A DNA stretch of 64,000 nucleotides, from IMG/VR virus record IMGVR_UViG_3300050138_000621, positions 104,647 to 168,646 of that record; one strand, 5' to 3'. Shown one piece after another: positions 2,604 to 64,000 of the stretch. This DNA comes from a virus. Under the pieces are notes generated by a model, which was not told the origin of the DNA, did no database searches, and was given only the letters and a program-made list of their open reading frames with translations. The translations under genes and the position numbers were made by a program. The first letter of the stretch is position 1; each line of letters starts with the position of its first letter.

Positions 2604-2609
2604 CAACTC

Positions 2610-2616
2610 ATGATTG
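2610..2616 (-). promoter_or_regulatory. Class B element CAATCAT
   Basis: CAATCAT on the minus strand with exactly 6 bases to the GTG at 2603 of the HNH gene. Confidence 0.6.
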
Positions 2617-3144: not shown

Positions 3145-3265
3145 GCCGTGGCTCCATTCATGAAACGTATGGCGGCCACGGAAGCGCCCGAGGCCAAAGC
3201 CACAACGCCGGAAGAAGCGACAGCAGGCGACGGACCGACTCAAGATCAAAAAGGGAGCAAACTAA

Positions 3266-3667: not shown

Positions 3668-3670
3668 CCT

Positions 3671-3682
3671 CGTTCGCTATAG
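3671..3682 (+). promoter_or_regulatory. Class A promoter CGTTCGCTATAG
   Basis: Exact motif; 6 bases to the ATG at 3689. Too little room remains for a Shine-Dalgarno site, so the mRNA is probably leaderless or nearly so. Confidence 0.85.
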
Positions 3683-3688
3683 GGTGGT

Positions 3689-8426: not shown

Positions 8427-9239
8427 ATGATATCCGCTGAGAAACCCTGCGGTCACTGCACGCTAACCAAGCCGGCCGCCGAGTTCTATGTCGAGAACAG
8501 AAGTGGTACACACCGCCTGACCTCATGGTGCCGCTCGTGTACTCAGGCCGCAAATAGGGCTCGGACCTGGGATCCGGAGACCGGCACCTTCGTCAAGAGG
8601 CCCACCCGCCAATCACCTCCTGGCATGAAATATTGCGGCGCGTGCAAGCAAGACAAAGCCAGTGGCCGGTTCTTTCGCAAACGGGACTCAAAGGATGGTC
8701 TCCAGAGCTACTGCATAGACTGTCGCAATAAAGCGGCCCGCGCACCTACGGGACGGAAGCAATCACGAACCGCGCAACAGAGATTCAGTCGCTCAGCAAA
8801 GGGAAGGGCCGCGCAGCGGATGCGCCAGTCGACTCCAGAGTACAAATTGGTGCACCGCCTAAGGGAGCGTCAACGCAAGATCCTCAAACGAGGCAAGAGC
8901 GCCAAACTCATGAGCACGATGGAGGCCCTGGACTGTACGGCAAAGGAGTTGGTACAACACCTAGAGAGGCAGTTCACCGATGGGATGACCTGGGAGAATA
9001 TGGGGACGGCGTGGCATGTAGACCATGTGCTTGAAATCGCACGGTTCGACCTTGCCGACCCAAAGCAGTACGGATGTGCGTTCCACTATTCAAATCTACA
9101 GCCCTTGTCGATCGAGAACCACCGAACCAAAACTGCGGAATTCCTTAGCTACTGGCATTCGGGGCAGAGGCGATCAGGGCCTCAACCTCTTCTTGCGTCA
9201 GTGGCCGGCCCTCAAACTTCGACTGGAGCGCCTTGCTGA
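8427..9239 (+). CDS. HNH homing endonuclease, divergent member (270 aa)
   Basis: Contains two zinc-ribbon-like repeats (CGHC/CRSC and CGAC/CIDC), a basic middle, and an HNH core: MTWENMGTAWHVDHVLEIARF with FHYSNLQPL. It belongs with the GSAVRDLGCT group but has LDCTAKEL in place of the signature. The last 30 residues, rich in Gly/Pro/Gln, overlap the convergent RNase H gene by 95 bases and are probably read-through of displaced sequence. Confidence 0.85.
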   Translation: MISAEKPCGHCTLTKPAAEFYVENRSGTHRLTSWCRSCTQAANRARTWDPETGTFVKRPTRQSPPGMKYCGACKQDKASGRFFRKRDSKDGLQSYCIDCRNKAARAPTGRKQSRTAQQRFSRSAKGRAAQRMRQSTPEYKLVHRLRERQRKILKRGKSAKLMSTMEALDCTAKELVQHLERQFTDGMTWENMGTAWHVDHVLEIARFDLADPKQYGCAFHYSNLQPLSIENHRTKTAEFLSYWHSGQRRSGPQPLLASVAGPQTSTGAPC

Positions 9240-9663
9240 GGCGATCGGCTATCTGATTGAACTCCCGCCTGATCCACTGGAATCGCACCGATGGGAACTT
9301 CTTCATCAGCCCTTTGGTCGAGGCCGTGTACTTCGCCAGCGTTGGTTCATGGACATTGAAGGCGCCTGATAAATGCCCGGCGATCAGTTGGGAATCGAGA
9401 TGGACGACGATGTGGTCCCCTTCGTGGCCGTTCTGAATGAGCCATCGCAAGAGGCTGTTGACGGCGAAGTGCTCGGCGGTGTTACCCGTTAGGTGCTCGC
9501 CCTCGCCCATGTAGAACGAGTGGTGGGCGACGTACTCGCCGGTCGAGCGCCGGACCAGCCATCCGATGTAATTGCACGGGGTCGTCTTCGGGCCCGTCTT
9601 CTTGCCCCAGGCGCCGCCGACGACGGAGCCATCTGTCCAGCAGTGCAACATGTTCTCACCCAC
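9145..9663 (-). CDS. rnhA: Ribonuclease HI
   Basis: RNase HI removes RNA from RNA-DNA hybrids, for example primers during phage DNA replication. Visible signatures: the first catalytic Asp in CWTDGSVVGG, Glu in GNTAEHFAVNSLL, Asp in VVHLDSQL, and the last Asp region in REFNQIADRLSKAL. About 172 residues, normal for the family. The start could be GTG at 9663 or the ATG at 9651; the GGGTGAG before the ATG slightly favours the shorter form. It overlaps the upstream gene by 8 bases. Confidence 0.88.
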   Translation of the reverse strand: MGENMLHCWTDGSVVGGAWGKKTGPKTTPCNYIGWLVRRSTGEYVAHHSFYMGEGEHLTGNTAEHFAVNSLLRWLIQNGHEGDHIVVHLDSQLIAGHLSGAFNVHEPTLAKYTASTKGLMKKFPSVRFQWIRREFNQIADRLSKALQSKFEGRPLTQEEVEALIASAPNASS

Positions 9664-9889
9664 GACGATCCCGAATCCAAAATAATAATCGGTAGATAAG
9701 TCGAAGAGGGCCCTCGTGGCTTTTGAGGTTAAGTCTCCACCAGGCGTTTGACCCGACGGGTGGCAAGGGCGGGATCTTCGACCAAACCCATCTCGCGGCC
9801 TTGACGAGGCGGGGCCTCACGATGACCATCGCGCCGACTACTGCCGAGGCGGCCATGACAGCGTCGGTCCACTTCGCTTCTGAAGACAT
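9656..9889 (-). CDS. Small membrane-associated protein (77 aa)
   Basis: Begins MSSEAKWTDAVMAASAVVGAMVIVRP with an AGAGGGA site upstream. One hydrophobic segment is followed by a basic, Trp-rich tail (WWRLNLKS, RLLFWIRDRRG) that should lie against the membrane. No family recognised. It overlaps the RNase H gene by 8 bases. Confidence 0.55.
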   Translation of the reverse strand: MSSEAKWTDAVMAASAVVGAMVIVRPRLVKAARWVWSKIPPLPPVGSNAWWRLNLKSHEGPLRLIYRLLFWIRDRRG

Positions 9890-10025
9890 GTTCGTCCCTC
9901 TGGCCAGGTGTGAGCTGGCGCACCAAGAAAGTCGGCGTTCAACAGGTGTCTGCCCCGTGCGCACAGAGCATTGGCCACCTTCAGAGGGGAGGCGCCCGAC
10001 TAACCTAGGACTAGCGAGCGCTTTG

Positions 10026-36862: not shown

Positions 36863-37351
36863 TTAGGGCAGGTCTGCGGCGCCAGGGCCTTCCGCGTTGT
36901 CGACCGACTCGTCGCCGACCGTCATCGCCATGAAGGTCTGGCTCAGCTCCTGCTGATTGCGCGCGTTGATGGTCGTCGAGTAGCCCGTCGGCACAACGCC
37001 GGTGAACTTTGCGACCTGCGAGGGCGCGCCCTGGTTCTCCCGCTGGCGATCGATGATCGTCATCTCCAGGTACTCGAAGTCGATGAGGTCTTGGAGGCGC
37101 GGAAGGCCGCCGTCGATGTGCGGGCCGTGGTCGAGGACCCGATACCCGGACGCCGAGATGTTCACGACGTTCTGGGCGGTGTACGTGATCGCGGCCGGCG
37201 AATAGCGACCGAGGATGTGAGCCTCCTCGGCGCTGTACGACAGACCGTACGACACGTTGTTGTAGATGCCAACGATGCGGACCTTGCCGCTGTTGGCGTC
37301 ATAAACGCCCAAGAGGGCTCGGGCGCCAGTGACGATTGGGGAAGTCGACAT
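36863..37351 (-). CDS. Tail tube protein (162 aa)
   Basis: Lies directly downstream of the sheath gene, the universal order sheath-tube. Size and beta-rich content (NVVNISASGYRV, FEYLEMTIIDRQ, AKFTGVVPTGYSTTINA, a strand-turn closing with NQQELSQTFMAMTVGDE) fit contractile-tail tube proteins such as T4 gp19. Many copies should line the inner tail. Start has an AGAGGA site; class B and C motifs lie upstream. Confidence 0.8.
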   Translation of the reverse strand: MSTSPIVTGARALLGVYDANSGKVRIVGIYNNVSYGLSYSAEEAHILGRYSPAAITYTAQNVVNISASGYRVLDHGPHIDGGLPRLQDLIDFEYLEMTIIDRQRENQGAPSQVAKFTGVVPTGYSTTINARNQQELSQTFMAMTVGDESVDNAEGPGAADLP

Positions 37352-37403: not shown

Positions 37404-39896
37404 TTACGCGCTTTGCTGAACCTGCTCGACCGTGAAGTTGATGATGACGAAGTAGATCGAGGTCGAGAGCTTGATCGCCATCTTGACCGCCATGACGGGG
37501 CCCTTGATCTTGATCGAGACGTTCTTGTAGCCCTTGGGCGCGTCGTCGCTGGGGGCGATGAGCTTCAGGCGCATCAGGTCGGCCATGATCGAGGAGATCG
37601 TGGTGGAGGCGAGCGACGCCGAGACGTCGGCGAGCGACTTGCCAACGAACGCCTTTTGCATCCGCTGCGCGGTCGTCAGCGTGACAAGGTCCGCCGCGTA
37701 CATCGCCTGAATGCTGTTGAAGACGAAGTTGTTGTCCGCGGTGTACGTCGTCTGGTCCGACGAGAAGGTGTACAGACCCGTCTCGTCCCGAACAATCGGG
37801 AGCAAGCCGGCCTGGAGGGCCTCCTGGACTTGGTCGGGATCCTGGTCCTTGAAGTCACCGGCGGCCTGAACGGCGCCGCTGATGGCGATCCCCTTGGCGA
37901 AGATCGCCTGGTAGAACGCACCGGCCTGCATCGCAGCCGCCTTGACGGCCGCCATCCAGGGCTGGTACTGCTCCACGCCGACCGAGCCGTCCGCGTCCAT
38001 CACGTCCTCGAACGAGCAGCAGCAGCGCGAGGATGCGAGGTTGGCCGAGACCGCCTGGCAGTTGACGAACGTGTCGCGGATCGAGAGAAAGGCCTGGCGG
38101 TGCCGCTTGGCCTTCATGTTCGACATCTGCAGCACGTGCGCGCGGACGTAGGAGTGGATCCCGGCGATGGTGTAGGACGAGCTGGCGTCGGTCAGACCGT
38201 CGGCGATGTCCGCGGTCGCGTCCCGCGAGAACAGCGGGATCACGAAGTTGGCGCGAACGAGCCGCAGGGCGGACGTCGCCAACTGGATCTGGGCGTCCGT
38301 GGTCCCGCCCAACGTGCCGCCCGTGAGGAAGGCGATGGCCGAGGGGGCCGGCAAGCCGGCCGGAGCCTTCGCCGCGAGCTGGACCAGCACGGAGTTCGCG
38401 TTGGTCGTGGTGAAGAACGCGTACGCGTCCTGCTTGATGCGGCCGGGGGCGCCGCCGTTGCTGGAGGCGATGTGGAACGTGCCCTGGTCGAGCGTCTTCG
38501 GCGACTGCGACCCCAGGGTCGCCGTGCCCGGCGCCGAGGTGTAGCCCTCGGCCGCTTCGATGAACGCCGCCAGGTCCGCCACCGTCTGGTAGTCGGAGAG
38601 CCTCAGCGAGCCGAGCGAGGCGCCCGCGCCGCCGGCCACCGTGATGACGATGTTGGTGCCGTCGATGGTGGCCGTGCCGGACGTGCCCTGGTAGCCGATG
38701 GTGAGGCAAACCTTGCCGCCGGCCACGATGTCCTCGGAGAGATTGTCGGCCTTGCGGGCCGACTGCATGTCCGCGATGTACTCGGTCGCCGAGACGATGA
38801 TCTTCGGCGCGGCCGTGGTCGAGAAGAAGGTGACCGGACCGCTGGCGTCGAGCTTGTAGAAGATGTCGACGAGGCCACCGGCGCCCGTGCCGAGGTCCGC
38901 GATCTCCAGCGACTTGCCGAGCCCGTCGACGGGGTCCCCAGCGGAGACGCTGATCGTGACCTGGTGTGCCGCCACGAGGTCGCTCGTCCCAACGACCAGG
39001 ATCGATCCCTGGGTCGTCGGCGACGTCAAGGCGCCGTGAGCGCCGCTGACGTCACGAGCCTTGATGGCCGAGATCGTGTTTGCGCTCTGTCCGGTGACGA
39101 TGTACGTACCAGCGTTGTTCGCGTGAACGGACGCCAGGACGGACCCGCTCCCGATGAACGCGGTGTCGCCCGGGATCAACGCCGCACCACTCCACGGCGT
39201 GTCGTAGGACAGCGTGACTCGGTTGCCGGAGACGACCGTCAGAGACAGGTTTCCGGTGATCGTGCCGACGACGCCAACCGCGCCGCCGCCCGTGGCGACC
39301 ACGCCGGTGAGTCCGTTGATGGCGGACACCGCCGTCGCCGCAGTTTCCGACGCCGCGATGGTCAACGATTGCGCCACGCCGCCGTTGACGCGGATCGCGG
39401 TGTTGACGCCCTGGGTGGGAACCAGCATGGAGAACGGGCCCGTGGTGGGGACCGCCTCGGCCTGCTTCTGCAGGACGGCGTTCGAAATCAGGTTGCCCTT
39501 CTTGCCGTACGAACGGTCCTGGACCGTCGCGTAGGTCGAGGCCGTCCAGTCTTCCAGCGTCCCGGACGCCTTGCCGGAGACGTTGGTCTTCACGAAGATG
39601 GCGCTGGTGAACGAACCCTTGATGTCGGGATCGTTGGCGGCGGCAACGGCGCCGCGGTAGGCCTTTACCAGGTTGCCAGATCCGTACTTCGCAACGACCT
39701 CGGATTCCGAGTTCGGACCGAAGGCATTGCGGCCGAGATCGCTCTCGTCCGAGAAGTCGGGGCCCTGATCGGACTCTCCCATGATCACCAGAACGCCAGA
39801 GGTGGCCAAAGAGCTGGGGGAGCTGACGACCTGGTAGTCGGCGTACGCGCCCGGGATGGAAATGGTTCCGCTATCGGTCGATACTGATTGTGCCAC
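37404..39896 (-). CDS. Tail sheath protein (830 aa)
   Basis: Contractile sheath subunit. The N-terminus (ISIPGAYADYQVV) and C-terminal third (YSVRAH-like region HSYVRAHVLQMSNM, MRLKLIAPSDDAPKGY, VEQV) follow sheath proteins. The C-terminal beta strands interlock with neighbours. At 830 residues it is longer than T4 gp18 (659); the extra length lies in beta-rich, Gly/Thr/Val-rich domains in the middle that would project from the tail surface. GTG start with a GGAG site. Confidence 0.88.
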   Translation of the reverse strand: MAQSVSTDSGTISIPGAYADYQVVSSPSSLATSGVLVIMGESDQGPDFSDESDLGRNAFGPNSESEVVAKYGSGNLVKAYRGAVAAANDPDIKGSFTSAIFVKTNVSGKASGTLEDWTASTYATVQDRSYGKKGNLISNAVLQKQAEAVPTTGPFSMLVPTQGVNTAIRVNGGVAQSLTIAASETAATAVSAINGLTGVVATGGGAVGVVGTITGNLSLTVVSGNRVTLSYDTPWSGAALIPGDTAFIGSGSVLASVHANNAGTYIVTGQSANTISAIKARDVSGAHGALTSPTTQGSILVVGTSDLVAAHQVTISVSAGDPVDGLGKSLEIADLGTGAGGLVDIFYKLDASGPVTFFSTTAAPKIIVSATEYIADMQSARKADNLSEDIVAGGKVCLTIGYQGTSGTATIDGTNIVITVAGGAGASLGSLRLSDYQTVADLAAFIEAAEGYTSAPGTATLGSQSPKTLDQGTFHIASSNGGAPGRIKQDAYAFFTTTNANSVLVQLAAKAPAGLPAPSAIAFLTGGTLGGTTDAQIQLATSALRLVRANFVIPLFSRDATADIADGLTDASSSYTIAGIHSYVRAHVLQMSNMKAKRHRQAFLSIRDTFVNCQAVSANLASSRCCCSFEDVMDADGSVGVEQYQPWMAAVKAAAMQAGAFYQAIFAKGIAISGAVQAAGDFKDQDPDQVQEALQAGLLPIVRDETGLYTFSSDQTTYTADNNFVFNSIQAMYAADLVTLTTAQRMQKAFVGKSLADVSASLASTTISSIMADLMRLKLIAPSDDAPKGYKNVSIKIKGPVMAVKMAIKLSTSIYFVIINFTVEQVQQSA

Positions 39897-41302: not shown

Positions 41303-42277
41303 TTACTGCTCGACCACGAAACCCTCTGCCGGATCGCCTTCCGTATCGACGGGGTTGGCGTCGTCGTCGACGAACACGAGGCTCTCGTCGATGCTCTCGA
41401 TCGTCTCGACGAACTTCTTCGGCCAGATCTGGCGCACGTACCCGACCATGTTGATGGTCCGCTTGAACACGATCTCGGGCAGGAGCCGTTCTTCGATCGT
41501 GAAGGGCCCCGAGGAGATCACGGTCCGCTCAATGCCGCGCCCCTCAATCAGCTCCTGCTTGTAGTGCAGCAACATGAACTGGAGGATCGCGTGCAGGTAG
41601 GTCAGGTAGATCGACTCGCCCTGGGCGTACGCAGTGAGCTGGTACGTCTCGCGCATGTTTACGCTCTCGACCGTCTGGGTGAGGCGCGGATGGGCCCCCT
41701 TGAGGTAGCAGGTGCGAAAGTCGGCAACCGTGCCGGGGGCGAGGCCGATGATGGCGTCGTCGACGACCTCTTGGATTAAATGTTCGGCTCCGGTGGAATC
41801 AATGACCCACATCCCGGGCGCCGGCACGATGTCGCCGAGGGCGGTGATGGGGATGGCCATCAGCCCTGAGGACGCGGCGTACTGTTCCGGGGCGAAGGGC
41901 CCTGCGATCGGCGGCCAGTCAATGTCGTCGAGCTGGACGGGCTCGACATGCTCGTAGTGGACGTCGCCGTGGGTCTGCTCGGCCTCGGTCGACTCCATGA
42001 GCGCGATCGTGATGCAGGGAAACCGCAGCTCGTCCATGCGGTAGGACATGAATACCGGGATGTCCACCGGCTCCTTGCCATCGCCACCGCAGAACCACTC
42101 CGAAATCCGAGCGATCTCTTCGTCTCCGTACCTTTGGCGGGTGAGCTTATCGTTGCGGAGGTTCGCAAAGATCGCGTCGAAGAATTTCTGATCGCTTGAC
42201 CGTAGCCGGCGGAGGGCCTCAACGATAGCCGTCCGCAGCAGAATGTCGGTCTGCAGGATCCCGTGCGCTTCCTTCAC
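41303..42277 (-). CDS. Putative tail completion/terminator protein (324 aa)
   Basis: Lies between neck-type and sheath genes. The N-terminal helices (TAIVEALRRLRSSDQKFFDAIF) are followed by a beta-rich middle (PVFMSYRMDELRFPCITIALME) typical of proteins that cap the tail and join it to the head. The C-terminus is acidic. The GTG start is fixed by CAATCAT exactly 6 bases upstream. Confidence 0.6.
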   Translation of the reverse strand: MKEAHGILQTDILLRTAIVEALRRLRSSDQKFFDAIFANLRNDKLTRQRYGDEEIARISEWFCGGDGKEPVDIPVFMSYRMDELRFPCITIALMESTEAEQTHGDVHYEHVEPVQLDDIDWPPIAGPFAPEQYAASSGLMAIPITALGDIVPAPGMWVIDSTGAEHLIQEVVDDAIIGLAPGTVADFRTCYLKGAHPRLTQTVESVNMRETYQLTAYAQGESIYLTYLHAILQFMLLHYKQELIEGRGIERTVISSGPFTIEERLLPEIVFKRTINMVGYVRQIWPKKFVETIESIDESLVFVDDDANPVDTEGDPAEGFVVEQ

Positions 42278-42913: not shown

Positions 42914-43555
42914 GTGAAGAAGTGCTCCAAATGTGGGGTGCCCCAAGAGCGATCCAACTTTCGCTCCGATAGGACCCGAAAGGATGGGCTGAGCTACTGG
43001 TGCGACACCTGCAACGACAGGAAGAACAAGACCTGGAACGCTGCGAATCCAGAACTTGTCAAGGCGAACAATCTTCGGTCAAGTAGAAAGACCGCGGCTA
43101 GCAAGCGTGCCTACAGCGCTAAATATCGCCAGGATCACCCCGATCGGGTAGCTGTCACTCGAAGAAAAAGTGAGAACAAAAGATACCGAAACGACATTGA
43201 ATTTCGCCTTCGGAAGGCCCTGCGCGGACGAATGGCCTGTGCGTTAGCCAATGACCAGAAAGTGGGCTCGGCCGTACGAGATCTTGGCTGCACCGTCCCA
43301 GAGCTGAGGACTTGGCTGGAAGCCAGGTTTTACCCGCACCCGGAGACCGGGGCGGCGATGACCTGGGAGAACTGGTCGCCCACGGGCTGGCATATCGACC
43401 ACAAGAGGCCGTTGATCTCATTCATTTTGACGGACCGCGGCCAGTTTCTTCAGGCCGGCCACTACACTAACTTGCAACCACTGTGGGCAGTCGAGCACAA
43501 AGCAAAGAGGCGTAAGGACCTTGAACAGAAGGCCCTCTTTCGGCCCCTTCTCTAG
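42914..43555 (+). CDS. HNH homing endonuclease, GSAVRDLGCT family (213 aa)
   Basis: Compact member: MKKCSKCGVPQERSNF with CDTC as zinc pairs, then GSAVRDLGCTVPELRTWLE, FYPHPETGAAMTWENW, HNH core GWHIDHKRPL and HYTNLQPLW. GTG start at 42914 gives the same N-terminus as the 5190 gene. Appended to the end of a plus-strand operon and ending within 4 bases of a convergent virion gene. Confidence 0.9.
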   Translation: MKKCSKCGVPQERSNFRSDRTRKDGLSYWCDTCNDRKNKTWNAANPELVKANNLRSSRKTAASKRAYSAKYRQDHPDRVAVTRRKSENKRYRNDIEFRLRKALRGRMACALANDQKVGSAVRDLGCTVPELRTWLEARFYPHPETGAAMTWENWSPTGWHIDHKRPLISFILTDRGQFLQAGHYTNLQPLWAVEHKAKRRKDLEQKALFRPLL

Positions 43556-44385
43556 GCGAGTATCTTCGCCATCAGCGCGGGACCTATTTGGCGGATCCAG
43601 ACGTCCTCTGCCCACTGAGCGGCCTCCTCGAAGAGGTACATCGGCTTGTTGCCGGGGTGTAGCCACTTCCCCGTGCCCTTGTGCTTTGAGCTGGCGATCC
43701 TGAACGTGGAGATCGATCGCTGGATCTTGCCGTTGTCGTCCTTGAACTGGTGGACCGACACATCTTGCAGGAACGGGATCCCCGCGTTGCCCTGACGGGC
43801 CTGCCCGAGCGGGCCCTTGCCCATCCCCGGGCTCTCCTGGGTCTTCAGGGGCTTGGTCATGATGGAGAAGTTGTGCAGGCGGCCGAGGCGGGCCTCACCG
43901 TTCGCATCCTTCTCGATTTTGCCCCAGGGGATCTTTTTGCTGCGCATCGCCGCCTGGATGGTGCTGACCAGGTCCTGCTGGATTGGGCCATTGGTGGCTG
44001 GACCAAGCTGGGGGCCGCCGGCTTTGCCTTGGCTCGGGCCACCGTGGGCGAAGTTTACGATCGCATATTGCGAACCGTCCTTGGCTGTCTTGGCGTTCTT
44101 GCTGGCGAGAAGCGAGGGGAGCATATCCCACGCCGGCTGGCCGTCCTCGATCCAACGCACCGACGCGTCCAGCACCACCATGTGGACGCCGTCCTCCTCG
44201 CCCAACGTGAGCTTCTCGACGTAGGCTTCGCGCCGCGAATGGAGCTTCTCCGCCGCAAGTTCTATAATTTTGCTCTGTGTCATCGCGGCGAGTTCGGCTG
44301 CGGCTCGATCTGCCTCTTTTTGGACACCATCGGTGATGTCGGCGATGCTGAGCAAATCGCTAAGATCAATGTTTATGTGGAGCAT
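43552..44385 (-). CDS. Neck/tail-completion protein, HK97 gp10-like (277 aa)
   Basis: The N-terminal helix with ADRAAAELAAMTQSKIIELA, the central WIEDGQPAWDMLPSLLASKNAKT and the C-terminal RIASSKHKGTGKWLHPG, then LFEEAAQWAEDVW follow the HK97 gp10 type of head-tail joining proteins (helix, loop, GW.HPG segment, closing helix). Its ATG lies 13 bases inside the GIY-YIG gene end. Confidence 0.65.
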   Translation of the reverse strand: MLHINIDLSDLLSIADITDGVQKEADRAAAELAAMTQSKIIELAAEKLHSRREAYVEKLTLGEEDGVHMVVLDASVRWIEDGQPAWDMLPSLLASKNAKTAKDGSQYAIVNFAHGGPSQGKAGGPQLGPATNGPIQQDLVSTIQAAMRSKKIPWGKIEKDANGEARLGRLHNFSIMTKPLKTQESPGMGKGPLGQARQGNAGIPFLQDVSVHQFKDDNGKIQRSISTFRIASSKHKGTGKWLHPGNKPMYLFEEAAQWAEDVWIRQIGPALMAKILA

Positions 44386-45239
44386 GCTGGTGCCTCTACG
44401 TAGATCAATACGTGCCCACGGGCTGACTTTCGCTTACCAGAAAGGACGGCGCTCACCTCACCTTGGGTAACCCCGAGCGCACGGGCGGCCTCCCCCTGGG
44501 TGACGTAAACCTCCCCAGCCTCGTCCCTAAAGGGCCTACCGCCGCCCTTAAGCCGAGCCTGATGGATGCGGTTGGCTGGATCGTCAAAAAAGATACGCGC
44601 TCTCTGGCCTTGGGCTTCGCGGAGTGCTGGCCGATTGGCAACCTCGGCATTGATCCTGCACCTCTCCTCCCGAAATGCAGGGTTCATCTTCCGACCTGTA
44701 AGAGCCTTGGAAATCGATGAGCGTGTTTCCTGGGAGCGCGGCCGGCCCTTAAGTGGGCTTGGGCGCCCTTTGTTGGCCTCCGACATGCGCTGGCGCGCCA
44801 ACGGTGAGTGACGGCGTCCGCGAAGTGCCTCGGAGATATGAAGAGAATGAAGCTTCGACAAACTCCTGCCCTTGTGAGTGATTGACTGCCTGTGCCGCCA
44901 CTCGTCGGTACGCTGGTAAGTGACCCCTGTGGCACCCTCCCCTCCGTCCGTCTTATTGAGTAACGGCACCCCTAAAGAACGAGCTGCCGCGATCCACTCG
45001 GCCTCGGCTGGAAATACTGGATCTGGGGACGCAAATTCCTCCAGTATCTCTATATCGTAACCGTTCGGTAAAGAGCGAATCCAATTGGCCTTGTGCCTAT
45101 TGTTAGATCGCCTCAAGGATGACGGGAATGCGTGGCTTTTCGCGCGCTTCATCCCCAACGTTGTCGCCCCTATATACCGCCAAGTCCCGTCCCTCGGATC
45201 CACAAGCGCGTAAATCAAAAATTGGGAGTTAGTTTTCAC
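44373..45239 (-). CDS. GIY-YIG homing endonuclease with NUMOD3 repeats (288 aa)
   Basis: GIY-YIG nuclease start: FLIYALVDPRDGTWRYIGAT with the conserved RAKSH helix and late E in LEEF. The middle has several NUMOD3 DNA-binding segments (HISEALRGRRHSPLARQRMSEAN, SISKALTGRKMNP). A helix-turn-helix at the end (YVTQGEAARALGVTQGEVSAVL). GTG start is 15 bases after a class A promoter, more than usual. Inserted in front of the gp10-like gene. Confidence 0.92.
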   Translation of the reverse strand: MKTNSQFLIYALVDPRDGTWRYIGATTLGMKRAKSHAFPSSLRRSNNRHKANWIRSLPNGYDIEILEEFASPDPVFPAEAEWIAAARSLGVPLLNKTDGGEGATGVTYQRTDEWRHRQSITHKGRSLSKLHSLHISEALRGRRHSPLARQRMSEANKGRPSPLKGRPRSQETRSSISKALTGRKMNPAFREERCRINAEVANRPALREAQGQRARIFFDDPANRIHQARLKGGGRPFRDEAGEVYVTQGEAARALGVTQGEVSAVLSGKRKSARGHVLIYVEAPACST

Positions 45240-45320: not shown

Positions 45321-46514
45321 TTACCCCTGTTGCTTGCCGGGCTGACGCGAGGAGACGGGGAAGGAGTTGGCGCCGAACAGGGGTGACGCCTCGAAGCCCG
45401 AGATCATTCCCGCCAGCATATTCTTCCAGCCGGCGGCACCGTCAGCGTGCCGGATTTTGATCTTGCCGGCCATGGTCGATCCCACCGGCAATTTGATGTG
45501 GGCGCGGCCGGCCGTCGTACCGCCGCCGCGGTGGGCCGCGGTGCCGGCATGAAGGTTCTGGGGGTTTTGAGGCAGGACGTTGGACGGGACCGTGTTGGCG
45601 GGCGTGTCGGGGTGCGGCATCAGTCGCGGGTTGGACGCGGACACCTCGGCCTTTTGGGCGGGCGTGGCGGCGGCCTGATCCGGAGGGACGTCACTGGGAG
45701 CAGCCTCGGCGGTCTCGGGGCCGGCGCCGACCACCTCGCGGCCGAGCGCGATCAGGCCCTGGACCAGCGCCATGATGGAGGCGTAGACCTCGGGGGCGGC
45801 GTCCTGGAGCTGCTGGATCAGCGGCATCTGGTCGCGGACCGCCGTCAATGTCTGGGCTACCTGGGCTCGGACCTCGTCGAGGTGTGACTCCTCGCCGGCC
45901 TGGTCCTGCTCGTCCTGCTGGCCCTGGGCCTCGGCCATGTTGTGCATCTGGGCTTCGAGAGCGTGGATCTGCGAAACGGGGTCAACGGGCTGGGGGGCCT
46001 CGGGGAGCTGCACGTGCGGCTGCTTCTCGGGCGCCGGGGGCGGGACGGGCGCCGGGCCGGCGCCGCCCTGGACGTCGGCCTTGCCAAGATAGGCCTCGCC
46101 GATCTTGTCGGATTCGGCCTTGGGGACGGCTGCGTCGAGTTCCTTTTGCATCGCCTCGTCCCAGACCACGACCAAGCCATTGCCGCCGCGGAGCTTCCCG
46201 ACCATGAGGGCCTTGGAGGATTCCGACATTCTCATCCCGACACCGACGGTGCAGGTGGCGCCCACGACCTCGGCGTACTGCCGCTGGATCGTCTGAACCT
46301 CGGACAGGCTCTGGGCGGGGATGGCGATTGCCCCCTCGTCTCCGCCAACCTCGATGGTTTCGCCCCCACAGCGGAGGGCGAGGGAGGTCCATAGATCGTT
46401 CCCGGCCCTGATGGCAAAGTCGACCTGACGCACCTTGGCGACGTCGTCGGAGAGACGGGCGCGGCCTGCCTCTCTCCCGATATGGTCGCCGTCGAACGAA
46501 ACGTAGCAGATCAC
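45321..46514 (-). CDS. GGDEF/mCpol-like palm-domain protein fused to a virion-type C-terminus (397 aa)
   Basis: Residues 1-118 read as a nucleotide-cyclase palm: MICYVSFDGDHIG gives strand 1 with Asp8/Asp10, IEVGGDEGAIAIP gives the GGDE hairpin (57-60), CTVGVGMRM and GKLRGGNGLVVVWD match the last strands of GGDEF domains. The DGD..G start and the lack of the GGDEF guanine-binding residues are closer to Cas10/mCpol palms. A Pro-rich linker, coiled-coil helices (residues about 185-260) and a C-terminal SH3-like segment (HIKLPVGSTMAGKIKIRHADG) follow. The GTG start lies exactly 6 bases after CAATCAT. It may make a signalling nucleotide or have been recruited as a structural fold. Confidence 0.7.
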   Translation of the reverse strand: MICYVSFDGDHIGREAGRARLSDDVAKVRQVDFAIRAGNDLWTSLALRCGGETIEVGGDEGAIAIPAQSLSEVQTIQRQYAEVVGATCTVGVGMRMSESSKALMVGKLRGGNGLVVVWDEAMQKELDAAVPKAESDKIGEAYLGKADVQGGAGPAPVPPPAPEKQPHVQLPEAPQPVDPVSQIHALEAQMHNMAEAQGQQDEQDQAGEESHLDEVRAQVAQTLTAVRDQMPLIQQLQDAAPEVYASIMALVQGLIALGREVVGAGPETAEAAPSDVPPDQAAATPAQKAEVSASNPRLMPHPDTPANTVPSNVLPQNPQNLHAGTAAHRGGGTTAGRAHIKLPVGSTMAGKIKIRHADGAAGWKNMLAGMISGFEASPLFGANSFPVSSRQPGKQQG

Positions 46515-49587: not shown

Positions 49588-50265
49588 GTGCCCTTCGCCG
49601 ACCTGGCCTTCGCCTGCATCCTTCAAGTGCTCGGCGGCGGCCGGGTCGACGCTAAGTGCGAAACGCCCTACCTACAAACGATCGCTGGCACTGTTGGTGC
49701 CGCAGCCAAGGACTTCGACGTCGATCCCGAGATCATCGTCGCCGTCATGCACCGCGAATCAAAGTTCCGACAATACACCGTAGGTCCGTTCCACGAACTG
49801 GGCTTGATGCAGGTCAAGCGAAATGGCGCCATCCAAGGCGACTGGCGCAAGCTCTCTGATCACGACCTCTCCGACATCACGCTCAATATCTACTTGGGTA
49901 CGGCCTATCTGTCGAAGTGGAGCCACCGCTGCAAGGCCCCTGTCCGTTATCTGACCCCGTACAACGGAGGAAGCTGTGTGCCGTCTGACTACAGCAGGTC
50001 TGTGTTGAAGGATCTTCATGCGGCAAAGAGGGCGTTCGCTATAGACCGAGCAACACATGGACTACGTCGAGCCGTACGGAAACCCGATTCTCACCACCGA
50101 CTCGTACAAGCCGAGTCACTACGACCAGCTTCCGAGCGACGTCGAGAACCTGCATGCGTACCTGGAGGCCCGCGTTGGTGCCCGGTACAGCCACACCATG
50201 AACTTCGGGTTGCAGTATATCCTCAACCACTACTTCGACCGCTCCGACTGCCCAATCACGTCTGA
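49588..50265 (+). CDS. Lytic transglycosylase, SLT type, with read-through tail
   Basis: SLT fold: catalytic Glu in MHRESKFRQ, then GLMQVKRNGA, NIYLGTAYLSKW and YLTPYNGGSC. It cleaves the peptidoglycan glycan strand, for entry or lysis. The GTG start overlaps nothing. The recognisable domain ends near residue 145; no stop occurs before the class A promoter, and the frame runs 209 bases into the NAMPT gene in another frame. The tail (RAFAIDRATHG and beyond) is unlikely to be functional. Confidence 0.8.
   Translation: MPFADLAFACILQVLGGGRVDAKCETPYLQTIAGTVGAAAKDFDVDPEIIVAVMHRESKFRQYTVGPFHELGLMQVKRNGAIQGDWRKLSDHDLSDITLNIYLGTAYLSKWSHRCKAPVRYLTPYNGGSCVPSDYSRSVLKDLHAAKRAFAIDRATHGLRRAVRKPDSHHRLVQAESLRPASERRREPACVPGGPRWCPVQPHHELRVAVYPQPLLRPLRLPNHV
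50033..50044 (+). promoter_or_regulatory. Class A promoter
   Basis: Twelve bases to the ATG at 50057, an unusual spacing. Drives NAMPT. Confidence 0.75.
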
Positions 50266-51574
50266 CGACGTCAAGATTGCCGGCGAGTTCTGGAAGCTCC
50301 ACGGCGAGCCGTTCAATCACGCCGGCTGGATGAGGATTGTGGACGAGCACGGCGGCCGGCTGCCGCTGACGATCCGGGCACCGAAGGAAGGTCTGCTGAT
50401 CCCCATTGACATGCCACTGCTCACCTGCACCCTCACCAAGGACGACCCCCAGCTCGCTTGGTTGGTGACCTATGTCGAGATGATGCTGATGCGGCTTTGG
50501 TATCCGATGTCGGTCGCCACGAAGTCCTTCTTCTGCAAGGACGTCATCCGGCGCCATCTCATCAAATCGGCCCAGGACCCCGAAGCCGAGCTTCCGTTCA
50601 AGCTCCACGACTTCGGCGGTCGCGGCGCGACCTCGGACGAGAGCGCGGGCGTGGGCGCCATGGCCCACCTCATCAATTTCCTCGGCACCGACACCGTCGA
50701 AGGGATCATGCTGGGGAACGTCCACTACCCGGCGCACGGCGCGCTGGAGGACAGCTTTCGCATGCTGGGCTTCTCGATCCCGGCCATGGAGCACTCGACG
50801 GTCATCGCCTGGGGCAAGGGCGGCGAGGTCGAGAGCCTCCGCAACATGCTCCGCAAGAACAAGGAGAAGGGCTTCAGGATCATCGCCTGCATCAGCGACA
50901 CCTACGACTTCCTCAACTGCGTCGAGAACATCTGGTGCGGTGAGCTGCTCGAAGAGGTGAAGGCGTCAGGCATGACGGTGGTCGTACGTCCGGACTCAGG
51001 CGACGCCGTCGAGACCAACCGGGAGGCGCTCAAGATCTTCGCCCGCAAGCTCAATCGGGAGATGACCTTCAACTCGAAAGGCTTCGCGGTCATCCCGAGG
51101 TACTACCGCCTGATTCAGGGCGACGGCAACGACGACGAGCGGGACATAGACCGCGTCTACACCGGCATCGAGACGGCCGGCTTCTCCTCGACCAACGTCG
51201 GCTTCGGAATGGGCGGCGGCCTGCACCAGAAGCTGGACCGCGACATGCAGCGCTTCGCCTACAAGGTGTCGGCAGCCAAACGCTCGGGCCGGTGGATCGA
51301 GACGCGCAAGATACCGAAGACAGATCCGACGAAGGCAAGCAAAGGTGGGCGCGTGGCGCTGGCGCAGACGAAGGGCCGGCGCCAGGAGTTCGTCACCGTC
51401 AACCTCGACAAGCTCGACTTCAACGAAAAGTACGGGCACTGGGACAACGAGATCGAGGGGTACGTCACCCTCCCGATGGAGGACTACCTCAGAGACGGCG
51501 ACGTCGTATGCGGCGAGGCCTTCGAGGACGTACGGGCGCGGGCAGGCGAGCAGCGTCTGCCGGAGGTGCTCTAG
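50057..51574 (+). CDS. nadV: Nicotinamide phosphoribosyltransferase (NAMPT/NadV)
   Basis: Joins nicotinamide and PRPP to give NMN. Signatures: NPILTTDSYKPSHY at the N-terminus, LHDFGGRGATSDESAGVG, PAMEHSTVIAWGKGGE, TVVVRPDSGD and FSSTNVGFGMGGGL, all typical of NAMPT. About 505 residues, close to the human enzyme (491). It overlaps the fused NMN adenylyltransferase gene by two bases, so the two steps to NAD+ are co-expressed. Confidence 0.95.
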   Translation: MDYVEPYGNPILTTDSYKPSHYDQLPSDVENLHAYLEARVGARYSHTMNFGLQYILNHYFDRSDCPITSDDVKIAGEFWKLHGEPFNHAGWMRIVDEHGGRLPLTIRAPKEGLLIPIDMPLLTCTLTKDDPQLAWLVTYVEMMLMRLWYPMSVATKSFFCKDVIRRHLIKSAQDPEAELPFKLHDFGGRGATSDESAGVGAMAHLINFLGTDTVEGIMLGNVHYPAHGALEDSFRMLGFSIPAMEHSTVIAWGKGGEVESLRNMLRKNKEKGFRIIACISDTYDFLNCVENIWCGELLEEVKASGMTVVVRPDSGDAVETNREALKIFARKLNREMTFNSKGFAVIPRYYRLIQGDGNDDERDIDRVYTGIETAGFSSTNVGFGMGGGLHQKLDRDMQRFAYKVSAAKRSGRWIETRKIPKTDPTKASKGGRVALAQTKGRRQEFVTVNLDKLDFNEKYGHWDNEIEGYVTLPMEDYLRDGDVVCGEAFEDVRARAGEQRLPEVL

Positions 51575-52716
51575 TGGGACCGCGGATGGCTCGCGAGTCC
51601 TTCATCGGCCAGCGCCTCTACTTCGTGACGGCAGGCGCCGGCAGCCGCTTCCAGGACTGCCTCTGGATGGTACCAGGCGCCAGCGGGTTCCTGGTCGGCG
51701 CCGCCTTCCCGTACGCGAAGGACGACATCGACGAGTTCCTCGGGTTCAAGGTCGAGAAGTACTGCGGCCGTGAACAGGCCCTCAATCTCGCGATGGAGGC
51801 CTACATGCGGGCGCGGCGCGCGCCCAGCGGCGAGGCCATCGGGCTGGCAGTGACGGCCGCCGTCGCCAGTGTTGACGGACCGCCCCGCCGAGGCGATCAC
51901 CGAGTCTTCGTTGCGGTCATCAGCGAAACCGGCGGCTACGTGCTCTCGAAGACCCTCGAAAAGAACCCGGGCTTCGGGCGCCCTCAGCGCCAGGAAGACA
52001 ACGAGGCCGCGGGCCTGGCAGCGGAGGACTTGCTGCGGATCGCCCTCGGCGAGTGGACATTCGAGGATGCGGTCGAAGCCAATTACAGGCACCCAAACAG
52101 TACAACGATCGAGCGCGTCAAGGAGGCCGAGCTTCTGGGGCTCTTCTTCAAACACCCGTTCTTTGGCCAGGGCGGAGGGCGCGGAGCGCAGGCGCCAGCC
52201 ACCATGGAGGTCTTCTACCCGGGTACCTTCAACCCGATCCACGATGGCCACCGGCACATCGTTCACAACGTCGGCACGAGCGACGCCTGCTACGTGGTGA
52301 ACGTCGATAGCGTCCACAAGCCGGCAATGTCCATCATCCAGATCCTGGACACCGCGGCCCAGTTCCGCACCGAGCGCCTGGAGTGGAGGAACGGATCTGT
52401 GCTCTTCACCCACGGCGAGGCGCTGTTCGTCGACAAGTTCGAAAAGCGCCCGGAGAAGACCTTTGTCGTCGGCGTGGACACCTTCGAGCGGATGCTGGAC
52501 CCGAAGTGGGGAGTGAACCCAGTCGAGGTCATGGAGACGATCTGCGACAACAACATCACCTTGTTCGTTTGCGACCGGATCGTCGACGGAGTCCGGAAGA
52601 GCGCCATGGAGGCCATCGAGCGGCTGAACCCGTCAGACCGCAAGTACAATTTCATTCAAGCCCTCGACATCGAGCCTCGCGCTCTGTCGTCGAGCGCGAT
52701 CCGGGCCAGGACCTAG
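51573..52716 (+). CDS. CinA-like domain fused to NMN adenylyltransferase (380 aa)
   Basis: Residues about 10-165 resemble the CinA/PncC fold as found in plant and bacterial nucleotidylyltransferase fusions (MVPGASGFLVGAAFPYAKD, IGLAVTAAV then RRGDHRVFVAV, NEAAGLAAEDLLRIAL). The SCTGG motif of active NMN deamidases is replaced by AGAGS. The second part is an adenylyltransferase: FYPGTFNPIHDGHRHI with HxGH, and RALSSSAIRAR near the end. It would make NAD+ from NMN and ATP. GTG start overlapping the NAMPT stop. Confidence 0.85.
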
Positions 52717-54792: not shown

Positions 54793-55614
54793 TTACCGTT
54801 CCCCAAAAATGTCGTTGGCTGCCGCCGGCACCTGGCGGGGGTCGTCTGGGTTTGGCGCCTTGCGATCATTATCCTGCTTTTCGAAAACGTACTCTCGGAT
54901 CACCGACATGCTCTGGGGCATACGGACCACGGCGCGTCCCCGGCCGACGTTCACCTGGGCGATGCGGATCTGGTGAATCATCCGATCCACGTAGAAGTAG
55001 GGCCGGTACGTGTACCTGACCGAGTAGATGACGCCCATTTTCTTCTCGACGTCGTAGCCGGGGCCGCCGTTGGTCCAAACGATCTGCCCGTCTACGATAG
55101 TGAAGTCGTCCGGGCCGTAGACCTTGCCGTTTGCGTCGATCAGGTCCGTGACCTGGACGATGGGGCGGCTGAGCCGGTCCCGGCCGGTGATGTGGGTCTC
55201 TTTGAGCTGGTGGTGGGGGACCGTGATGGCCTCCTCATCCAGGTACAGGCGATCGTAGGGCGCCACCTGGACCTCGGCGTCGCAGTCGTCGTAGTGGGGA
55301 GGCAACGTGACCTGGGCGGTGCCGCCGTCCATCATGCCGGCGTCCATCTGCTGCATGCGGTTGCTGTTGCTCGTGAAGAGCCCGGTGACGATGCCGGACT
55401 TCGAATAGATATGCCCGTTCGAGCATCCCGAGTGGTCGGGATGGGGCCGGCGCTCGCTGTCGCGATCTACCATGCCGACGGGGCAGCGGAGGGCCCGGTA
55501 GTGGACGAATTTGACCCCATGGTTCCGGAGCTTGTCGTCGAAGTCCTGGGGACTGAAGCTGTTTTCGACGGGGACGGACGTGATCGTGACGTCCTGCTCT
55601 ACGCGGCGTGGCAT
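54793..55614 (-). CDS. Neck/head-completion-type virion protein (273 aa)
   Basis: Begins MPRRVEQDVTITSVPVENSF. The middle has CPVGMVDRDSERRPHPD and CSNGHIY, a possible metal site. The C-terminal half is strand-rich (VDGQIVWTNGGPGYDVEKK, GVIYSVRYTYRPYFYVDRM, RAVVRMPQSMSVIREYVF). Lies between head-side and tail-side genes and is probably a connector protein. Confidence 0.55.
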   Translation of the reverse strand: MPRRVEQDVTITSVPVENSFSPQDFDDKLRNHGVKFVHYRALRCPVGMVDRDSERRPHPDHSGCSNGHIYSKSGIVTGLFTSNSNRMQQMDAGMMDGGTAQVTLPPHYDDCDAEVQVAPYDRLYLDEEAITVPHHQLKETHITGRDRLSRPIVQVTDLIDANGKVYGPDDFTIVDGQIVWTNGGPGYDVEKKMGVIYSVRYTYRPYFYVDRMIHQIRIAQVNVGRGRAVVRMPQSMSVIREYVFEKQDNDRKAPNPDDPRQVPAAANDIFGER

Positions 55615-56667: not shown

Positions 56668-59160
56668 CTACTCGCACTGGATGGAGAAATACCGGTTGAT
56701 CGCTTCGTCTGCCGGGTAGGAAGCGGTCAGGTCCCGCAGGACCTGCAGTCGATTCGCGCACGCCGGCCCATCCAGGCCGGGCCCGGTGCCGTTCAGCACC
56801 CCCGCGTTGACTCCCATCAGCCATTTTTTGATCACTTCGGCCGTCAACGCGTCAACCCTCGGAAGACGCTCCAGTCGGTTGCTCGGGGTCAGCGCCCCAT
56901 CGTCGGCCTGGTTCGTGAAGACGGTCAGCACGTACGGCACGAACGATCCATCAACCAGCCCGAGGGCTTGTCCTAGGAGGTTCCCGTGGTTGACGAAGCA
57001 GATGCCCGGCGGCGCGGCCTGCGGCTCTGACCGCATCGAGGCCATTGCCTCGTACATCGAGCGCTCGTCCGACTCCGACGCCCGGTCCTCCACCAGCACG
57101 TTCCACTCATTCGCGTCGCGGTTCCCCAGAATCGCTTCCATGGCCGCCCAGATGTGCACCTGTCCCGTGCCCAGGTATTTGCCGAGCTGCTTCCTGGCCG
57201 CATTGGGATCTTGCGAGGCGAGGTACCCGAGGGTCTTGTAGGAGGACGGGATCTGGGCGGTCGCTGCGTACGGCACCGCGTTCATCGTGATCAGCTCGGT
57301 GCGGGGGTAATATTTGTCCATCCCCCACCTCTTGGCGACCTGGTACCAGGAGGCATCACTCTGGGGCAGGTATTCCGCGCCCTCGCGGCGCAGGAACCAG
57401 GTCGAGCCCTTTGGGTCGTCCGCGCGCAGGACGCCGTTGCGAACGTGCACGATCTTGCCGGCGGCGCCGGCCCGCTTCACGGCCTCCGCGCAGTCGGCTC
57501 CCGAGCAGAGGTCCGCGATCACGTCCGTCGCCGGAATCGTCTCCTCTGCGATCTCGGCAGGCGCCAGGCCGAGCCCGACCGCGCCCTTGAGCGACGCCCG
57601 CGTCTCTTTCGTCACCTCGAACCCATACGCCGCGAGGGCGGCGACGCGGACGTCCTGGGCGGCTCGGAAGTACGCATCCCGGGCGCCCTGCTCGGACACC
57701 GCCGGCAGGCCTGACAGGAACTTCGCCGCCAGGAACTCGGGCGTCTCCACGAAACAGTGCCCGATCATGGCCTGATCGACGGATCCGACCTCCTCGCGCT
57801 TCGCGAGCAGCATCTGCAGGTGGCGGTTGCTGAAGAACTTGTGGTCCATCAGCCCGGCAAGGGCCTCCTGGTCGCCGGAGGCCTTCACCGTGGCGACGAT
57901 CCCATCGAGCTGGTGGGGAAGGAGGGCCCGCGACTGCGCGGCGCCCTGGAGCAGCGCAGGGCTCCCGGACTCGATGGCCTGCCCGACGTCCTCCGACGTC
58001 GCGGAGGGGCCTTGGAGGTACGCGCCCAGCAAGCGGTCGAACGGGGCGCCCTTGAGCGACCGCTGGACCTGGAGGTCGCGGTACAGCTCGGGCGAGACGG
58101 GACCCGAGCGCAGGAGGTGGCAACCCAGGGCCAGCAGGTGCTCCGGCGCCGAGACCGGGATCCGACGGACGAACGCGGAGCGGAACTCGGGGGACAGGTT
58201 CGGGTGCTGCGCAGCCTTCATCGAGAAGGGCTGCGCGTCGGCGGGGACCTCGACGCCGAGCTTGATCGCCTGGTGGAGGACGGGCTCGGGCGTGTTGGGA
58301 TGGTCCAGGAGGGCCAGGCGCTGGGCGCCGGTGGTCCCGTAATCGCTGTAGAGGCGAGAGATGTCGTCCGGCGCCAGGGCTGGGTGCGCGATGATCTGGT
58401 CGAAGAGCTGCTGCTGGACCGCGAGGTGAAGCGCGGGCGAGCGCGAGATCAGCTCGCTCAGGTGCTCGGGGCGCACGTGCGGCGAGCGCAGGAACGCGAG
58501 CTGGTTGGCGATGGGGTAGTTGCCGGCGCTGTCGTCCGAGGCCCGGGCGAGGTTCATGCCGTCGACGTCGCAGAACATCGGGTGATCGATGGCGGCCTGG
58601 TGGACCCGCGGGTCGGCGTCGAGCATCGCCGAATTGATGTGGTCGGCGCCCACGCTGTTGAGGCGCAGGGCCATCAGGCGCTCGACGGGATTCGGGTGGG
58701 TCAGGAGCCGGGCGACCTCGTGCTCGGCTTTCGCGAGGCTGCGGAGGCGTTCGGACTTCCCGAGATCGAAGAGCTGGCGGAGGATGTTCGAATCGTCCTC
58801 GGGGCCGTGGAGCTTGGAGTCCACCTTCGACGGAATGCCCTTAGAGACGTCGTAAAATTTCCAGTCGTTTCCACACTCATCGTCGGGATCAAAGTCCCCG
58901 TGGGGAGTGCCAGTCACATATGCCGAATAAATGTTCAGCTCGACATCCTCCGACGTCATGTAGCTGGTAACAAAGGAGATTGACTTTGGATGGAGGCCCG
59001 TCTCTTCGAGCAGCTCGCGAAGGGCCCCGTCACGGGGGTCTTCGCCCTCGTCGAGTCCGCCTCCGGGCAGCGTGAGCTTGCCATTGTCCTTGCGACGCCC
59101 CAGCAGAAGCTCCTGCTGTGCGTTATATACGGTGACGAGGGCCACACGCTTGGATGGCAT
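56668..59160 (-). CDS. Nudix - helical repeat - kinase-like fusion protein (830 aa)
   Basis: Residues 1-130 are a Nudix hydrolase with an intact box (G34 ... E40 ... R48-E49-L-L-E52-E53-T-G55). Residues about 140-560 are helical repeats with DHPN/THPN turns (LTHPNPVERLMAL, LDHPNTPEPVLHQAI), like HEAT or leucine-rich-variant repeats. The last 270 residues resemble a PI3K/HipA-type kinase fold: GSTWFLRREGAEYL, a catalytic-loop-like GNRDANEWNVL at 679-689 and FVNHGNLLG at 722-727 where kinases have a metal-binding D. Adjacent to connector genes, so possibly a virion or injected protein. The combination is unusual. Confidence 0.75.
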   Translation of the reverse strand: MPSKRVALVTVYNAQQELLLGRRKDNGKLTLPGGGLDEGEDPRDGALRELLEETGLHPKSISFVTSYMTSEDVELNIYSAYVTGTPHGDFDPDDECGNDWKFYDVSKGIPSKVDSKLHGPEDDSNILRQLFDLGKSERLRSLAKAEHEVARLLTHPNPVERLMALRLNSVGADHINSAMLDADPRVHQAAIDHPMFCDVDGMNLARASDDSAGNYPIANQLAFLRSPHVRPEHLSELISRSPALHLAVQQQLFDQIIAHPALAPDDISRLYSDYGTTGAQRLALLDHPNTPEPVLHQAIKLGVEVPADAQPFSMKAAQHPNLSPEFRSAFVRRIPVSAPEHLLALGCHLLRSGPVSPELYRDLQVQRSLKGAPFDRLLGAYLQGPSATSEDVGQAIESGSPALLQGAAQSRALLPHQLDGIVATVKASGDQEALAGLMDHKFFSNRHLQMLLAKREEVGSVDQAMIGHCFVETPEFLAAKFLSGLPAVSEQGARDAYFRAAQDVRVAALAAYGFEVTKETRASLKGAVGLGLAPAEIAEETIPATDVIADLCSGADCAEAVKRAGAAGKIVHVRNGVLRADDPKGSTWFLRREGAEYLPQSDASWYQVAKRWGMDKYYPRTELITMNAVPYAATAQIPSSYKTLGYLASQDPNAARKQLGKYLGTGQVHIWAAMEAILGNRDANEWNVLVEDRASESDERSMYEAMASMRSEPQAAPPGICFVNHGNLLGQALGLVDGSFVPYVLTVFTNQADDGALTPSNRLERLPRVDALTAEVIKKWLMGVNAGVLNGTGPGLDGPACANRLQVLRDLTASYPADEAINRYFSIQCE

Positions 59161-62845: not shown

Positions 62846-64000
62846 TTACTCCGCCAGGTTGTCGACCAGCGCGTTGAAGCGCGGGCCCTTGACCGCCAAG
62901 CACACGAAGCGGAAGAAGGCTTCCGGGGTGCTGAGGTCGGTGACCGCCATGTGTGCGCGGCTGAACGGTGCCATCTCTTTCAGGCCCATGCTGTCCTTCT
63001 GGACCAAGAAGCCGGTCGCGAAACCGGGGTTCTTGTTGTCGAGGTCGACGAAGGTCGTCGAGGACCCGCCCTTGTTGATGACCACGCGGCCGATGAACTT
63101 CGCCTTGCTGGCCGTGGCGCCCGCGACGCTGCGGTACACGTTGAACCACTCGACAGTGCCCGAGGCCGGGTGATTGATGGTCACCGTCTCGGCGTCGCCG
63201 GTCGTGGTGATCGAGCGAGAGACCGCCGGGCAGGCCGGACCCTCACCGAGGAAGTTGCAGGGCGTCGCGACGTAGAGGTACACGTCGCCCGCCTTGAAGT
63301 CCGTCGGAGCCGCGCCAGCCCCCGATGCGATCGTGATCGTCATGCTGGCGTTGGTGAGGCCGGACTGCACGTGGTACGGAGCGGCGCCCGTCTTCCCGCG
63401 GAGGAACTGATGGCTCTTCAGCTTCACAGCTCCGACCGTGGTCCACTGGGTCTGGAGATCCGAGCCCGACGCGGTCTGGGGAGACCCACCGAGCACGTTC
63501 CGCTGGTAGGCCAGCAGGATCTTGTTGTAGCCCTGGAGGACCTTCGGGCTGACGAACAGCTCGTTGGCCTTGCCGAAGCCCAAAGAGCTGCGGAGGGCGG
63601 CGTCGTCGACCATCTCTTGCGTCAGGCTGCCGTTGCCGTTGATGACCACGGAGTCGCCCGAGCCGAACTCGGCGAACATCAGGTCGTGGGTGTCGCGTCG
63701 CGCGTCGGACTGACGAACCTGCAGGTCCACGCCCTGCATGTTCGGCATCCCCTGCGGGAGCACGAGCGGGTTGCCGTCGAACTGACCGGCGTTCGAGAAG
63801 TCCGCCTGACCGCGGAAGCAGTCCATCTCGATGTCGCAGCCCAAACGAAGGGCTGCCGACTCCGACGCGCGGTCCTCGGCCTTGGTGCCATCGAAGGTCG
63901 CGACGATGTTCGCGACCAGCGTGGTGCGGCGAAGCTCCGAGTAGTACGACATCGGAACGGTTGCTCGGATGTAGTCCGAGACCTCTTCCTGGCCGACCTG
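62846..64000 (-). CDS. Major capsid protein, 5' end outside the window
   Basis: At least 384 residues are visible; the frame is open to base 64000, so the N-terminus is missing. Features: EEVSDYIRATVPMSYYSELRR near the start, then GSGDSVVINGNGSLTQEMVDDAALRS, ELFVSPKVLQGYNKILL, a beta-rich insert (ASMTITIASGAG, FKAGDVYLYV, VEWFNVYRSVAGA), and the end EAFFRFVCLAVKGPRFNAL. The helix/E-loop/P-domain order and the terminator-bounded single gene fit an HK97-fold capsid protein. It is probably the most abundant virion protein. Confidence 0.75.
   Translation of the reverse strand, partial: QVGQEEVSDYIRATVPMSYYSELRRTTLVANIVATFDGTKAEDRASESAALRLGCDIEMDCFRGQADFSNAGQFDGNPLVLPQGMPNMQGVDLQVRQSDARRDTHDLMFAEFGSGDSVVINGNGSLTQEMVDDAALRSSLGFGKANELFVSPKVLQGYNKILLAYQRNVLGGSPQTASGSDLQTQWTTVGAVKLKSHQFLRGKTGAAPYHVQSGLTNASMTITIASGAGAAPTDFKAGDVYLYVATPCNFLGEGPACPAVSRSITTTGDAETVTINHPASGTVEWFNVYRSVAGATASKAKFIGRVVINKGGSSTTFVDLDNKNPGFATGFLVQKDSMGLKEMAPFSRAHMAVTDLSTPEAFFRFVCLAVKGPRFNALVDNLAE

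Follow-up and report, generated by a model that had tools for sequence, protein, structure and literature searches.

A large tailed phage, represented by an IMG/VR virus record of 168,646 bases, encodes among its virion genes a protein whose N-terminal domain is almost certainly an mCpol nucleotide cyclase palm. The gene is located at 45321-46514 on the minus strand of the window, i.e. the whole stretch of 64,000 nucleotides analysed here, and its product of 397 amino acids is very probably a virion-module protein. The catalytic residues are intact, and about 25 related phages show the same arrangement; it is thus a conserved part of these viruses.

Results

Identification of an mCpol palm

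The open reading frame starts with GTG at 46514, where the ATG starts of relatives align, and ends with a stop at 45321. A promoter scan 5' of the gene and an Rfam search of the palm-gene region gave no match. An earlier note, made from the DNA letters, had placed a palm of the GGDEF, Cas10 or mCpol kind in this frame on account of four motifs. Frame and motifs were recovered, namely FDGDHIG (residues 7-13), VGGDEG (56-61), TVGVG (89-93) and GKLRGGN (106-112), in this order.

The palm comprises residues 1-130 (46125-46514, minus strand). Pfam family mCpol (PF18182) matched residues 4-115 with E=2.4e-6 and 28.3 bits, passing the curated cut-off of 26.4 and covering positions 1-112 of the 114 positions of the profile; relatives of the same family matched down to E=6.5e-17. 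The GGDEF family (PF00990) gave no match to the window protein at E≤1, and the Pfam search of this protein yielded no Cas10 match; among the relatives weak matches to Cas10-Cmr2_palm2 occurred, one of them above cut-off (L038). When the window protein was compared with PDB chains by plain phmmer, OptS ranked first at a non-significant E=0.22. A profile built from eleven phage relatives found OptS with E=7e-15, collinear across the entire domain, and the next molecule was a GGDEF protein with E=0.12.

An AlphaFold2 model of the window protein was built with 25 related proteins; pLDDT exceeded 90 in the palm and was low in the linkers. The best PDB matches of the palm in Foldseek were the OptS structures 9mnr, 9pd0 and 9nwn (TM-score over target 0.83-0.87; 1.5-2.0 Å). 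GGDEF and Cas10 proteins ranked behind OptS, the match to Csm being much weaker. The palm fold is secure because Pfam, the OptS profile match, AlphaFold2 and Foldseek agree. The structure prediction and fold search proposed in the earlier note thus returned a palm with OptS as its closest PDB relative, of the mCpol type and not of the GGDEF or Cas10 type. A non-palm fold or diverging metal residues had been named there as grounds for abandoning the idea; the predicted fold is a palm and the metal residues converge, as judged by the alignment with OptS.

Domain architecture

The palm is followed by a Pro-rich linker of low model confidence (residues 131-178; 45981-46124), a helical region (179-261; 45732-45980), a disordered linker (262-345; 45480-45731) and a C-terminal beta domain (346-397; 45324-45479), all on the minus strand. 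Palm, linker and helical region are common to nearly all members. This order of palm, Pro-rich linker, helices and end domain had been described correctly beforehand; the label SH3-like for the end domain remains unproven, the C-terminal beta domain being only moderately confident in the model. A profile of this domain, which is about 60 residues long, found many palm proteins and, in the sequences searched, otherwise only a weak match to a small ORF directly 3' of the L044 palm gene. Small ORFs resembling that of L044 occupy the corresponding position in L011, L012, L013, L015, L034, L036 and L040, and the L056 palm protein carries a similar C-terminal stretch in fused form (similarity judged by eye in all of these). 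Such a mixture of fused and separately encoded adjoining forms is typical of components acting together.

The disordered linker is the site at which further domains are inserted in relatives. Above the Pfam cut-off, these are a GNAT (acetyltransferase) domain in L024 and DUF5661 in L029 and L032; furthermore, part of the L024 palm protein is common to another large virion-module protein of Myxococcus phage Mx1 (E=9e-84). In the window copy the palm is the only recognised enzyme domain and no enzyme domain is inserted. The middle of the L031 palm protein (about 8595-9434) appeared ADP-ribosyltransferase-like by eye and was dropped, having no match in Pfam or among PDB sequences.

Conservation of the active site

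The catalytic codons lie at 46491-46493 (D8), 46485-46487 (D10), 46335-46346 (GGDE) and 46194-46196 (K107) on the minus strand. In the sequence alignments, D6 and D57 of OptS fall on D8 and D59 of the window protein. The exchange D57A in OptS abolishes c-di-AMP synthesis (PMC12657230). By analogy with GGDEF enzymes, K107 may contact the triphosphate.

Conservation was counted over 28 distinct phage palms and 137 alignment columns. D10 is invariant, D8 is kept in 26 of the 28 palms, 27 have Asp or Glu at position 59 and 27 have Lys at position 107; D8, D59 and K107 belong to the 14 most conserved columns. By alignment, the metal-site residues D8 and D59 are intact in the window protein, as the earlier note had stated, and they are conserved among the phage relatives. 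Mx1 is the sole member in which D8, D59 and K107 are all lost, and the L006 palm is without D8; catalysis is thus dispensable in some members. Mx1 also forms the longest phage branch of the palm tree (2.71 versus a median of 0.49) inside an 18-row clade (support 95/96) in which its exact placement is weak. Bacterial mCpol was represented in this tree by a single OptS outgroup sequence, whose branch is very long. Conservation of D8, D59 and K107, together with the loss of all three on the longest branch, is expected if the site is selected elsewhere. Since the protein persists in Mx1 despite its degenerate site, it probably has a catalysis-independent role as well.

Comparison of the window palm with that of its closest relative L002 gave a dN/dS of 0.08, i.e. 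strong purifying selection; the virion neighbours gave 0.11-0.14, which is of similar order. The palm is probably catalytically active in this phage. The base-contact residues S30 and N34 of OptS correspond to D32 and R36 in the window protein and are variable among phage palms; because they differ from OptS, the nucleotide preference is not readable from the sequence.

Gene order in related phages

Nearly thirty distinct phage relatives of the palm protein were found, drawn from viral contigs, one bacterial MAG and phage Mx1. A search of 58 genomes of the phylum of this MAG, which holds L044, detected mCpol in that MAG alone, and capsid and sheath genes are present on one of its two contigs. 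Portal, sheath and major capsid of the phage record were identified by PHROGs. Where the contig extends, the gene order is capsid, adaptor-position gene, phrog_1004-type gene, a further gene, palm, neck-position gene, a gene for 324 amino acids, sheath and tube.

In the window these genes lie on the minus strand. The major capsid gene (62846-64000; PHROG major head protein, E=1.9e-25) is cut by the record end, and the phrog_1004 virion structural gene is found at 54793-55614. Downstream of the palm follow the neck-position gene for 277 amino acids (phrog_16819; 43552-44385), the gene for 324 amino acids (41303-42277), for which tail terminator is a weak guess, the tail sheath gene (37404-39896; PHROG tail sheath, E=2.8e-27) and a probable tail tube gene (36863-37351), whose homologue in Mx1 directly follows the sheath gene. 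Of 26 loci, 25 have this neck-position gene as the first marker virion gene downstream of the palm, mostly with sheath and tube thereafter. The association with tail and neck genes, which the first reading of the DNA had asserted, thus holds in nearly all relatives, the palm gene being on the same strand and upstream of the neck-position, sheath and tube genes. The predicted fold of the 277-residue neighbour had no match in the PDB at E≤0.001; with no solved structural relative, the term neck rests on position.

In most loci little space separates the palm and neck-position genes, but the window has about 890 bases there and L038 has 3.2 kb. A homing endonuclease gene (NUMOD3, I-HmuI-like; 44373-45239, minus strand) occupies the gap in the window, and a homing-endonuclease-type ORF likewise lies between the two genes in L008 (about 9406-9898). 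No palm was seen in more distant phages with a neck-position gene (L016-L018 and Bacillus phage Goe26); the palm is therefore a feature of one lineage and not of all such necks. A human-gut phage fragment (H8; L046) with a weak tblastn match contained an ordinary GGDEF-type frame and was dropped.

Two further observations concern other enzymes encoded in the window. An 830-residue protein of the virion cluster (56668-59160, minus strand) has an N-terminal NUDIX domain and is related to Mx1 proteins annotated as 'NUDIX hydrolase' (1479 amino acids) and 'kinase' (619 amino acids). On the plus strand, a nicotinamide phosphoribosyltransferase gene (50057-51574) is followed by a nucleotidyltransferase-like ORF (about 51571-52716; weak CTP_transf_like match), and the two are possibly an NAD+ salvage pair. 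Such pairs can counter NAD+-depleting defences.

A second cyclase palm

A record-wide search with GGDEF (PF00990) gave one match above cut-off, at 2678-3046 of the record (minus strand), which is outside the window and not in the palm protein. The ORF that contains it codes for 808 amino acids (record 2363-4786, minus strand) and is situated upstream of the gene for the major capsid protein; within the product, the GGDEF domain lies on the C-terminal side of a probable prohead protease. Over 324 aligned positions, the N-terminal part of the 808-residue protein shares 38% identity with the 'putative prohead protease' of Mx1; Pfam did not confirm a protease in this protein and PHROGs gave a hint only. 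The same GGDEF domain, with its GGDE motif intact, is present in this phage and five relatives (G002-G005 and Mx1), and G006-G008, which represent the other branch of the lineage, gave no GGDEF match. In Mx1 it is a separate gene annotated 'nucleotide cyclase' (OR576727.2, 17173-17904), so that this phage combines a degenerate mCpol with an intact GGDEF. A GGDEF match in an E. coli P2-like record, annotated DgcN and located beside an integrase, was set aside as probably flanking host DNA.

Comparison with known systems

The phage palm and Panoptes OptS have in common the palm fold, the length, a collinear alignment, the first Asp, the second Asp (D57 in OptS) and the Lys near the end. They differ in context, OptS being encoded in a two-gene defence operon and the phage palm in a virion operon. 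OptS consists of about 120-130 residues, whereas the phage palm continues into long linkers, helices and an additional domain at the C-terminus; furthermore, the window palm has GGDE where OptS has AADG, and the base-contact residues differ. Panoptes operons carry a membrane effector (S-2TM-beta or related), whereas the constant neighbour of the phage palm is a virion-module gene. A Cap15 effector profile had no match in eight records, the control search being equally silent.

GGDEF diguanylate cyclases (PF00990) share the palm fold and the GGDE loop with the window palm, although their fold match is weaker than that of OptS. The Cas10 palm of type III CRISPR is alike in fold, with lower similarity than OptS; the window protein is without HD or other Cas10 domains, and no CRISPR genes were seen. 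Phage polyvalent proteins combine several unrelated domains and are encoded with virion genes, and the relatives L024, L029 and L032 do likewise; the window protein shares the location, but its recognised domain is the palm only. Iyer et al. (2017; PMC5512222) suggested that GGDEF domains in polyvalent proteins disturb the nucleotide signals of the host, and the consulted parts of that article name GGDEF, not mCpol, among the domains. The ADP-ribosyltransferase Alt of phage T4 is similarly encoded with virion genes and resembles the palm protein in its possible mode of delivery; the chemistry differs, and Alt is packaged and injected, whereas the palm protein is known here from genes alone.

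On the conjugative Sulfitobacter plasmid pSpoCB-3 (NZ_CP072616.1, 71912-72894) an mCpol gene overlaps a small hypothetical gene and lies near genes for a DncV-like nucleotidyltransferase and a ThiF-family protein; this locus is likely a Panoptes-CBASS pair.

Discussion

Host mCpol enzymes make decoy cyclic nucleotides and thereby punish phages that remove such signals. Our preferred explanation, which we hold tentatively, is that the window gene encodes a virion-module mCpol cyclase whose product acts on host nucleotide signalling. In this view, the palm heads a conserved multidomain protein that is produced along with the products of the virion-assembly genes. Two such palms would associate as they do in OptS and couple two NTPs into a cyclic dinucleotide, Asp8 and Asp59 holding the metal and Lys107 being placed at the triphosphate. 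The linkers, the helical region and the C-terminal domain may link the palm to either the particle or an assembly complex; we give its location in the particle an even chance. Whether it is produced late or enters with the particle, the palm would add cyclic nucleotide to the cell and disturb nucleotide-signalled immunity of the host, e.g. by holding a Panoptes-type effector inactive or crowding the receptors of CBASS. That the palm acts on host signalling at all is a guarded suggestion. The cyclase explanation is favoured because of the OptS match, the conserved site, the low dN/dS and the fixed place in the virion module, and also because of the swappable, polyvalent-style enzyme domains and the second intact GGDEF among the virion genes of the same phage.

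The fixed place among assembly genes is also compatible with an assembly role. The main rival accordingly regards the palm as an assembly part, located where head and tail join or within the head, which dimerises and binds NTP or a cyclic nucleotide as a switch or glue; any catalysis would serve assembly and not signalling. This is a serious possibility, although short of even, and it agrees with the constant position between phrog_1004-type and sheath genes, with the presence of the palm protein in both branches of the lineage, with its retention in Mx1 despite the degenerate site and with a C-terminal domain that forms a separate adjoining ORF in several members, as is typical of structural parts. 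However, the metal and Lys positions show much stronger conservation than a scaffold fold needs, relatives carry inserted enzyme domains, and L016-L018 and Goe26 have the neck-position gene without a palm, so that the palm is not required for such necks. Both roles, in host signalling and in assembly, may hold.

An injected polyvalent effector, with the palm as one of several host-modifying domains acting on physiology (e.g. c-di-GMP-type signalling) and not on immunity, appears unlikely. The GNAT and DUF5661 insertions, the stretches shared by the L024 protein and the large Mx1 protein, the GGDEF nature of the second palm and the precedent in polyvalent proteins (PMC5512222) are in line with it, but the window copy is without an inserted enzyme domain. 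That the phage carries a host-type Panoptes module aimed at rival phages is most improbable: the catalytic domain is the same as in OptS, yet gene context already disfavours this idea, the constant neighbour being a virion-module gene and not an effector, and the multidomain architecture contrasts with the short OptS; the missing Cap15-type match adds a weak argument in view of the silent control. It is also very unlikely that the palm of the window's phage is a functionless remnant. Mx1 shows that the site can be lost, but every tested catalytic position is intact in the window palm, and its dN/dS is low.

Neither the mCpol domain nor the occurrence of cyclase domains in phage polyvalent proteins is new in itself. 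Among host mCpol enzymes, OptS of Panoptes is the one that has been characterised, and the consulted parts of two Panoptes papers describe host mCpol only. No virion-module mCpol came up in literature searches, whose scope did not extend to supplementary tables or to most subscription journals; an earlier mention is possible. What looks new is the combination of a conserved virion-operon mCpol lineage with another, protease-linked cyclase encoded by the same phage. A more far-reaching idea, which we consider rather doubtful, is that the mCpol of this lineage, joined in one branch by the protease-linked GGDEF, belongs to the particle or to its assembly core and that these phages deliver or produce cyclic nucleotides by which host sensors are fed or jammed. 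If this held, the phages would have a reply to defences that watch over the cyclic-nucleotide pool.

The palm is a small domain, so the cyclase proposal is directly testable, and the isolated phage Mx1, with its degenerate mCpol and intact GGDEF, provides a natural comparison. An mCpol that keeps its catalytic residues and is fixed in a virion operon suggests that phages may supply such nucleotides themselves. Should the palm serve no offensive purpose, it would suggest that particle assembly includes a nucleotide-dependent step, which would be unexpected too.
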